Source: Gammaproteobacteria bacterium
GTDB lineage: Bacteria; Pseudomonadota; Gammaproteobacteria; GRL18
Length of the DNA stretch: 35,040 nt
Assembly (NCBI GenBank): GCA_027012135.1
Contig: JALUZF010000076.1
Coordinates: 1-35,040 of the forward strand
Reading direction: 5' to 3'
Shown here: one piece after another, positions 12,698 to 35,040 of the stretch
How positions within the stretch are numbered: the first letter of the stretch is position 1
Layout: every line of letters begins with the position of its first letter
Notes under the pieces: model-generated
The model's input: the letters and a program-made list of their open reading frames with translations, nothing else
Databases searched by the model: none
What the model was told of the DNA's origin: nothing
Translations under genes and position numbers: made by a program

Positions 12698-12802
12698 GTT
12701 TACCTTTATCCTAATATCCTAAAAATAAGTTTGTAACTGTTCTTTATGCTACAACTAAAAAATCATTAAATTTATATCTTTATTTGTTAACTTAGACTCG
12801 TA

Positions 12803-12914
12803 GTATTAGCTGGTAGAATGGCTTTTCTGAAGACGCCGTGAACCCATCCATGGGGGCTTTTCGGCAGCGTCCCTGCTGCCGAAACTTCAGAAAAGCCATT
12901 CTACCAGCTAATAC
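12803..12914. repeat. Palindromic dispersed element, copy 1 (30-bp perfect arms)
   Basis: A 112-bp element between metK and ahcY. Bases 12803-12832 and 12885-12914 are perfect 30-nt reverse complements. The interior has the core GCCGTGAACCCATCCATGGG (12835-12854) and a second hairpin with a 10-bp stem (12859-12868 with 12875-12884, loop GTCCCT). The core recurs near 30442 and 35003, and in diverged form near 23395, but the arms have a different sequence at each site. It resembles a REP/MITE-type element. It could form a long cruciform or RNA hairpin between the two methyl-cycle genes. Confidence 0.85.
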
Positions 12915-12935
12915 GGTCGTGTTTATAGCACCGTA

Positions 12936-23338: not shown

Positions 23339-23379
23339 AAATGGGGTAATTACCTGGATTACCGTAACAGGGTATAGTG

Positions 23380-23461
23380 ACTGTATTTCCGGGGACGCTC
23401 AGGCACATCCATGTGGCGCTTTATCTCGGCATCCTGCCTCCATAAACCCCGTAAATACAGT
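23380..23461. repeat. Palindromic dispersed element, diverged variant, between purE and purK
   Basis: Bases 23380-23394 and 23447-23461 are reverse complements at 14 of 15 positions. The interior (23395-23446) aligns with the core of the elements at 12803, 30413 and 34973: an ACGC start, a CATCCATG centre with a following GG, then CTTT. The inner hairpin is degraded. Just upstream, GTAACAGG at about 23364 matches the first eight bases of the left arm of the copy at 34973. I read it as a second subtype of the same element family. Confidence 0.6.
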
Positions 23462-23565
23462 ACCTGCAGCCAATCACGGTCATATTGACTGAATACTTGC
23501 GTTAGTTTTTCAATAGAGAAAATTTAAAAGTATTTTAGAAAGCAGAAATAAGGAAAAACAATACC

Positions 23566-30192: not shown

Positions 30193-30632
30193 AAATTATC
30201 CTTCAGATCACCGGTGGTTTAGTTTTTATCATTTTATTCAGGTTTATATTGCCGGTTCATATTTACCGGTCCAGAGTCGGAGAATAAACAACTGATACAA
30301 CCCATTATTATAGTCGGTTTTTTTTAAATAGTTAATTAGTATTTTATTAAATAGTTTAATGGTGTCAGAGTGGGAGCATACTTTTAATGATTCTCATTTA
30401 GACGCAAATACCGTATCTATTGACCGTGCTCCTTGCTGAAGATGCCGTGAATCCGTCCATGGCGGTCATGCTGCCGAAACTTCATCAAGCAGCACGGTCA
30501 ATGGATACTCAGAGGTTATAAATTTCAAATTGAACATATTTTAACCAAAGTATGATCCGGCCCTGTTAATGGTGTAATGTGCTTGTTAAAATGCCCGGCT
30601 TTTCAGGGGGAAGCAGGACACTCAGTGGTATG
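30193..30632. other. 440-bp gene-free region upstream of the secreted protein gene
   Basis: Contains no convincing gene. The AT-rich part adjoining 30193 should carry the promoter of the minus-strand secreted protein. The remainder holds dispersed palindromic element copy 2 (30413-30508) and, next to the end of lptG, a short CCGGCTTTTCAGGGGG stretch. I see no RNA gene. Confidence 0.5.
30413..30508. repeat. Palindromic dispersed element, copy 2 (29-bp arms)
   Basis: A 96-bp element. Bases 30413-30441 and 30480-30508 are reverse complements at 26 of 29 positions. The core GCCGTGAATCCGTCCATGG (30444-30462) matches the cores at 12835 and 35005, but the arms do not match the arms of copy 1 apart from a terminal GTA and CTGAAG next to the core. 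The inner hairpin seen in copy 1 is truncated here: only the right arm GCTGCCGAAAC is left, which accounts for the shorter length. Confidence 0.8.
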
Positions 30633-34744: not shown

Positions 34745-35040
34745 ATATTCACTAACATTTATATCGACGGGTTTAAGCAGATTATACCATCAATAAATCA
34801 GCATGTTTTTAAAGAATCAGGAGGAATAATGTTTAATGAGCATTCAGAATAAATGATGTCTTTGTAGATTATAGATTGAATAGTATTATTGAACTAAAGT
34901 TTAGAGTTTCAGATCCCCCAAAAAGGAGAATCATTTAAAAAATTATTGATTACCTCAGTCAACCGATAGCCCGTAACAGGAACCGGGTATCCCTTGCTGA
35001 AGCCGCCGTGAATCCGTCCATGGAGGCTTTTCGACAGCAT
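34745..35040. other. Gene-free region at window end
   Basis: No gene identified. It holds a mini-frame with an excellent ribosome binding site (GGAGG at 34820-34824, ATG at 34829, seven codons then TAA), which may be a leader peptide or gene debris, and the start of palindromic element copy 3 from 34973 to beyond the window. Confidence 0.45.
34973..35040. repeat. Palindromic dispersed element, copy 3, cut by window end
   Basis: Left arm by analogy 34973-35002 (30 nt, starting GTAACAGG, ending GCTGAAG), followed by core GCCGTGAATCCGTCCATGG at 35005-35023 and the beginning of the inner hairpin (CTTTTCGACAGC). Core identical or near-identical to copies at 12803 and 30413. The right arm lies outside the window. 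Confidence 0.75.

Follow-up and report, generated by a model that had tools for sequence, protein, structure and literature searches.

Weinberg et al. (2010, PMC2864571) list TwoAYGGAY (Rfam RF01731) among probable RNAs, outside both the riboswitches and the cis-regulatory class. Binding of the regulator CsrA to TwoAYGGAY has been proposed (PMC4333381), and Rfam clan CL00106 comprises TwoAYGGAY and CsrB. The high-affinity Csr/Rsm site is an ANGGAX hexaloop on a stem (PMC4005645), and a CsrA dimer bridges sites 10-63 nt apart, with an optimum above 18 nt (PMC7652899). At the DNA level, template switching between inverted repeats has two published products, arm homogenisation and inversion of the spacer (PMC8604942, PMC8794818).

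We analysed a window of 35,040 nt (the whole stretch of DNA presented above) from a genome of 3.9 Mb in 325 contigs, hereafter the own genome. The preliminary description had noted two palindromes in this window, at 12803-12914 and 30413-30508. R1, a covariance model built from 17 own-genome copies, revealed two more, at 34966-35040 and 23357-23484, so that the window holds four elements. Their features are as follows.

12796..12921, minus strand: complete TwoAYGGAY-like element (R1 covariance model 125.4 bits; RF01731 37.3 bits)
12885..12914, minus strand: RNA 5′ arm, 30 nt, locus-unique sequence, 30/30 complementary to 12803-12832
12859..12884, minus strand: hairpin 1, loop AGGGAC at 12869-12874, a CsrA-type ANGGAN hexaloop
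12835..12857, minus strand: hairpin 2, loop AUGGAU at 12846-12851, conserved UUCAC bulge
12803..12832, minus strand: RNA 3′ arm, 30 nt, pairs with 12885-12914
23357..23484, minus strand: fourth element, divergent type (R1 34.6 bits; inverted repeat I2)
30356..30365: 10-bp target duplication TTAATGGTGT, left copy
30366..30565: 200-bp MITE enclosing the 30413 element, with terminal inverted repeats CAGAGTGGGAGCATACTTT / AAAGTATGATCCGGCCCTG
30406..30515, minus strand: MITE-internal element, hairpin 1 deleted, single ANGGA loop kept (R1 66.3 bits)
30566..30575: 10-bp target duplication TTAATGGTGT, right copy
34966..35040, minus strand: third element, truncated where the contig ends (R1 55 bits on the incomplete copy)

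The complete element was flanked by metK and ahcY (flanking genes by Pfam). On the minus strand, its core formed two hairpins atop a long stem made by the arms, with a fold 11 SD below dinucleotide shuffles. The arms of the 12803 copy were reverse complements at 30/30 positions and those of the 30413 copy (30413-30441 / 30480-30508) at 26/29, as first described. The two copies had in common the core GCCGTGAA-CC-TCCATGG, the terminal GTA and CTGAAG, and their arms were otherwise unlike; this pattern, too, was described correctly, and it proved general. The element at 23357-23484 was located between purE and purK, and the inner half of its arms was paired while the outer half had decayed. At least three copies with arms and flank similar to those of the 34966-35040 element were found (L003, L007, L013). 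Contig breaks inside elements recurred (window position 35040; L003, L011, L015); because assemblies repeatedly break there, draft genomes undercount the elements.

The closest Rfam family was TwoAYGGAY, with a full-length model match at 12794-12923 on the minus strand. The 12803 copy scored 37.3 bits against RF01731, below the gathering threshold of 43, whereas the sister copy L009 scored 52.3 bits and several copies from family genomes 43-53 bits. Against the TwoAYGGAY label stand this sub-threshold score and the loop AGGGAC, which is not AYGGAY. The core is probably TwoAYGGAY or a close relative, and the earlier remark that no described family was known has to be withdrawn. The CsrB covariance model (RF00018) gave no match in the window or the copies, and Rfam matches to miRNA families were rejected as chance matches to a near-perfect stem.

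The core loops were ANGGAX hexaloops placed directly on a stem, both in the folds and among 116 genus cores. Two CANGGANG were present in 83 of these 116, and the loops varied chiefly at the N and X positions of ANGGAX, as expected from RsmE structures (PMC4005645). Most cores carried two ANGGA loops, the second base often being G instead of Y, as in AGGGAC of the 12803 copy next to its AUGGAU. The GGA motifs were 19-20 nt apart in 59 of 60 copies from seven distant genomes, which is within the bridging range of a CsrA dimer. Moreover, a canonical csrA of normal length was present in the own genome. The core is probably a docking site for CsrA, and the elements may serve to titrate CsrA or to tag transcripts. 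We also observed an extra insertion in several copies whose mid-section is long, among them L028, L033 and L035: ~50 nt within the hairpin 1 loop that form a hairpin of their own (AATAAATTGCTCCTGCATTTATTGCATTTCCGCCATCCATGGCGG) and add an AUGGAU loop to the opposite strand. At two loci (L008 vs L248, L018 vs L266), hairpin 2 was exchanged between the unrelated GGGTTCACGGCGTC and CGCTCTTTATTATAAGAGAAAGGCGTC.

The preliminary description had suggested that structure might be the object of selection, and covariation bore this out. In the 17 own-genome copies, pairing was kept in 97.6% of stem cells and 33 of 45 pairs showed two-sided changes, a result reached by none of 500 shuffles; the outer stem alone had such changes in 24 of its 29 pairs. 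Non-Watson-Crick arm pairs, read on the AYGGAY strand of 59 non-redundant stems with a strand-symmetric scoring that gives G-U and A-C equal weight, comprised 85 G-U vs 13 A-C (p=4e-14), and the own genome alone gave 16 vs 3. Since a palindrome selected or kept up purely at the DNA level should yield the two kinds in roughly equal numbers, this skew points to selection for RNA pairing of the stem on the AYGGAY strand, which would be the transcribed product; transcription-linked deamination could add some of the G-U bias. On the other side, the orientation of copies relative to neighbouring genes was mixed, and the search for a promoter revealed no general one. An upstream promoter carried by the element was considered and rejected: TATAAT-like sites were enriched at -5 (13/101), mostly in the MITE lineage. 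Placement as a cis-regulatory element or terminator was likewise rejected, given the mixed gene orientation around copies and the rarity of convergent gaps.

With at most two mismatches, the core pattern had 39 matches in the own genome vs 1 in a reversed control; two of the 39 were gene-internal and without arms. The covariance model identified at least 51 distinct elements, a lower bound, as are our copy counts generally, because several contigs end inside an element. TwoAYGGAY-type matches occurred in 18 of 24 family genomes vs 0 of 14 control genomes. A wider survey with the core model, limited to genomes at least 90% complete, gave hits in 45 of 276 gammaproteobacterial genomes, from 41 of 216 genera; 16 candidates were scored per genome, and many genomes matched in all 16. 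Carriers of the exact core pattern included Alteromonas, Shewanella, Microbulbifer, Pseudoxanthomonas, Lysobacter and Arenimonas. Some elements stood in oppositely oriented pairs (L009:1246-1371 with 1433-1558; G021:C299, G018:C387, G013:C114), spaced from ~60 bp (L009) to ~130 bp, and L026:1372-1530 was a compound palindrome of two nested elements with a common arm region.

The arms differed from locus to locus, as the first reading of the window had it. Compared as inverted repeats, they were 0.90 identical within a copy vs 0.58 between copies, and their variable 15 nt 0.88 within vs a median of 0.33 between. Searched in the 24 family genomes with at most three mismatches, the 24-nt arm sequence from the 12803 copy matched nothing but its own two arms. 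Among the distant genomes, G103, G296 and G235 had arm identities of.96-.97 within and.47-.57 between copies, whereas the copies of G243 and G225 had arms in common.

How arms change was visible at 39 same-orientation orthologous pairs within the genus, where the element occupied the same site, the flanks were mostly 80-97% identical, and the arms differed yet remained self-complementary. The closest contrast per locus gave 493 stem pairs with 21 one-sided and 21 two-sided changes from one Watson-Crick pair to another, compared to ~0.8 two-sided changes expected by chance. One-sided changes were thus as frequent as two-sided ones, and homogenisation of the arms is incomplete. Matched one-base length changes were found in both arms of L038/L258 and L022/L296, although the matched changes come from few loci with a common phylogeny. 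Furthermore, the core was inverted between L312 (G000) and L346 (G002), with an identity of.98 inverted vs.53 direct, between arms.83-.86 identical and flanks 90-94% identical. Two more likely core inversions, with arms partly conserved, were found between G296 and G300, one of them at a locus partly masked by N. Matched arm changes and core inversion between the same arms are the footprints of template switching, which we infer to be the cause of arm exchange; they favour the earlier suggestion of gene conversion between arms.

The account that we prefer, with moderate confidence, combines a CsrA-type RNA core, a stem kept paired by selection and arm-to-arm template switching, with spread partly by MITEs. 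The RNA of the AYGGAY strand would form a long arm stem topped by two ANGGA-hexaloop hairpins ~20 nt apart, an arrangement suited to holding one CsrA dimer. Selection would preserve the sequence of the core but, in the stem, only the pairing, leaving the stem sequence free to drift. Because the arms form a long inverted repeat with 52 nt of spacer between them, template switching during replication would copy one arm onto the other and occasionally flip the core. Copies would travel partly as MITE cargo, and at loci other than 30413 the MITE ends would have decayed after insertion while arms and core persisted, so that each locus would come to have its own arms.

Compensatory mutation under RNA-stem selection alone, with no exchange at the DNA level, would also keep the arms complementary. 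The strong bias of G-U over A-C indicates selection at the RNA level, 11 of the 21 one-sided changes retained a G-U pair, and own-genus arms diverged at roughly the rate of the intergenic DNA next to them, so that no hypermutation is needed there; by eye, the arms of G296/G300 seemed to change faster than their flanks. However, 9 of the 21 two-sided changes (0.43) had no G-U path, which is as common as the mutation spectrum predicts (flank transversion share 0.35), and neither the matched length changes nor the core inversion between the same arms fits such a process. We consider compensatory mutation on its own an unlikely explanation.

Genome G296 is poorly explained by the account that we prefer. 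Its ten copies had near-identical cores but unlike arms of 26-32 nt, perfect in four copies, with arm identities of.97 within and.57 between copies and no common outer arm end or flank; G103 and G235 were similar. Near-identical cores with unrelated, near-perfect arms mean that slow drift alone is insufficient in these three genomes. The stem of hairpin 1 in G296 was also invariant in sequence between copies while the arms were scrambled, which counts against structure-only drift, since such drift does not predict it. Either the cores of G296 are homogenised between copies or the arms are renewed at insertion, the latter being only a possibility. A dispersed class of elements in which the core alone is inherited and 25-30 nt arms are strand-switched from local DNA, making each copy a unique perfect palindrome, seems to us rather doubtful.

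Somewhat less probable still is the proposal that arms arise anew at each insertion, the incoming core being joined by an inverted-repeat copy of 25-30 nt of the target DNA beside it. The ten copies of G296, their counterparts in G103 and G235, and a 12803 arm found nowhere else in the family would all be expected from it. In the own genus, however, the outer arm ends (GTA, GATACGGA) were conserved, so there the arms travel with the core. The element-free G300 loci orthologous to occupied sites had no pre-existing single arm. Sites L029, L039 and L324 had seemed to contain one arm in an otherwise empty site, a reading that we rejected because the remnant carries the conserved 3′ end of the element; that of L324 keeps both element ends. 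Loss of elements also occurs and leaves 3′ scars behind, and we read the apparent empty sites in close relatives as mostly deletion scars between short repeats. Of the earlier idea that arms are made locally, direct formation at insertion found no support.

Insertion was observed for the 30413 copy, which has the terminal inverted repeats, target duplication and empty sites of a MITE. The terminal repeats are of the form CAGRG...CCCTG, members of the family are 200-214 bp long, and relatives G004 and G002 have an empty site with a single copy of TTAATGGTGT. All eight family members checked were surrounded by exact or near-exact 10-bp duplications, and the 30413 arms were common to ~14 copies. 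Other copies had in common another type of flank, bearing GTAACTAYTCAG ends. In the flanks of the 12803 copy, no terminal inverted repeats or target duplication were visible outside the arms. The metK-ahcY locus lacked the element in G001, G005 and other family genomes in which it is contiguous, so the 12803 element is probably a gain; contigs of the same-genus relatives G003 and G004 break exactly at this locus. The preliminary description had held that fixed arms in many copies would make these repeats ordinary MITE subfamilies, which is the situation of the 30413 MITE copy and not of the 12803 arm. As a complete explanation, with arm types as fixed repeats and locus-specific arms as rare subfamilies, the subfamily account is very improbable: it stands for MITE-borne copies, given the 30413 family, the common arms in G243 and G225 and the recurrent GTAACTAYTCAG flank, but of the own-genome copies found first, roughly half have locus-unique arms and flanks, and it is refuted by arms that differ at one orthologous locus between sister genomes.

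These observations link an RNA that is an orphan in Rfam with a repeat family present, often in many copies, in 45 of the 276 gammaproteobacterial genomes sampled, and the sequence evidence indicates its acting strand and CsrA-type loops. The copies may form a genome-wide web of candidate CsrA docking sites, partly spread by MITEs. They also offer a natural test bed of many copies for whether long RNA stems are kept up by template switching or by two-step compensatory mutation, an open question in RNA evolution.

Compared to TwoAYGGAY, the elements similarly place two hairpins with AYGGAY-type loops on a long, poorly conserved outer stem, match the full-length model, and are likewise gammaproteobacterial, with multiple copies in genomes of this family. 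They differ in that the 12803 copy scores below gathering and the loops vary as ANGGAN, and in their MITE-embedded copies, co-evolving arms and core inversion, which we did not find described for TwoAYGGAY. With CsrB and the RsmX-Z sRNAs, which sequester CsrA, they have in common the clan CL00106 and ANGGA hairpin loops spaced for a CsrA dimer; those sRNAs hold many units in one molecule, whereas the elements here, for which no conserved promoter was found, have one putative binding unit per copy at tens of loci.

The 30413 copy resembles MITEs in its terminal inverted repeats, 10-bp target duplication and empty sites; the 12803 copy lacks such ends, and the variable arms lie inside the MITE and do not make up its terminal repeats. 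REP/BIME palindromes are similarly intergenic, multi-copy and palindromic, although we take the core and arms to be unlike REP sequences. At some orthologous loci of G300 (L466, L467), GTAG-type REP-like palindromes stood where the sister genome G296 has this element, as though certain intergenic gaps were prone to receive palindromic repeats. Finally, the matched arm and length changes and the inversion of the spacer between largely unchanged arms resemble template-switch (quasipalindrome) systems; those are known in scattered genes, microRNAs and rRNA stems, whereas here the changes occur in a dispersed repeat family with a conserved 52-nt spacer.
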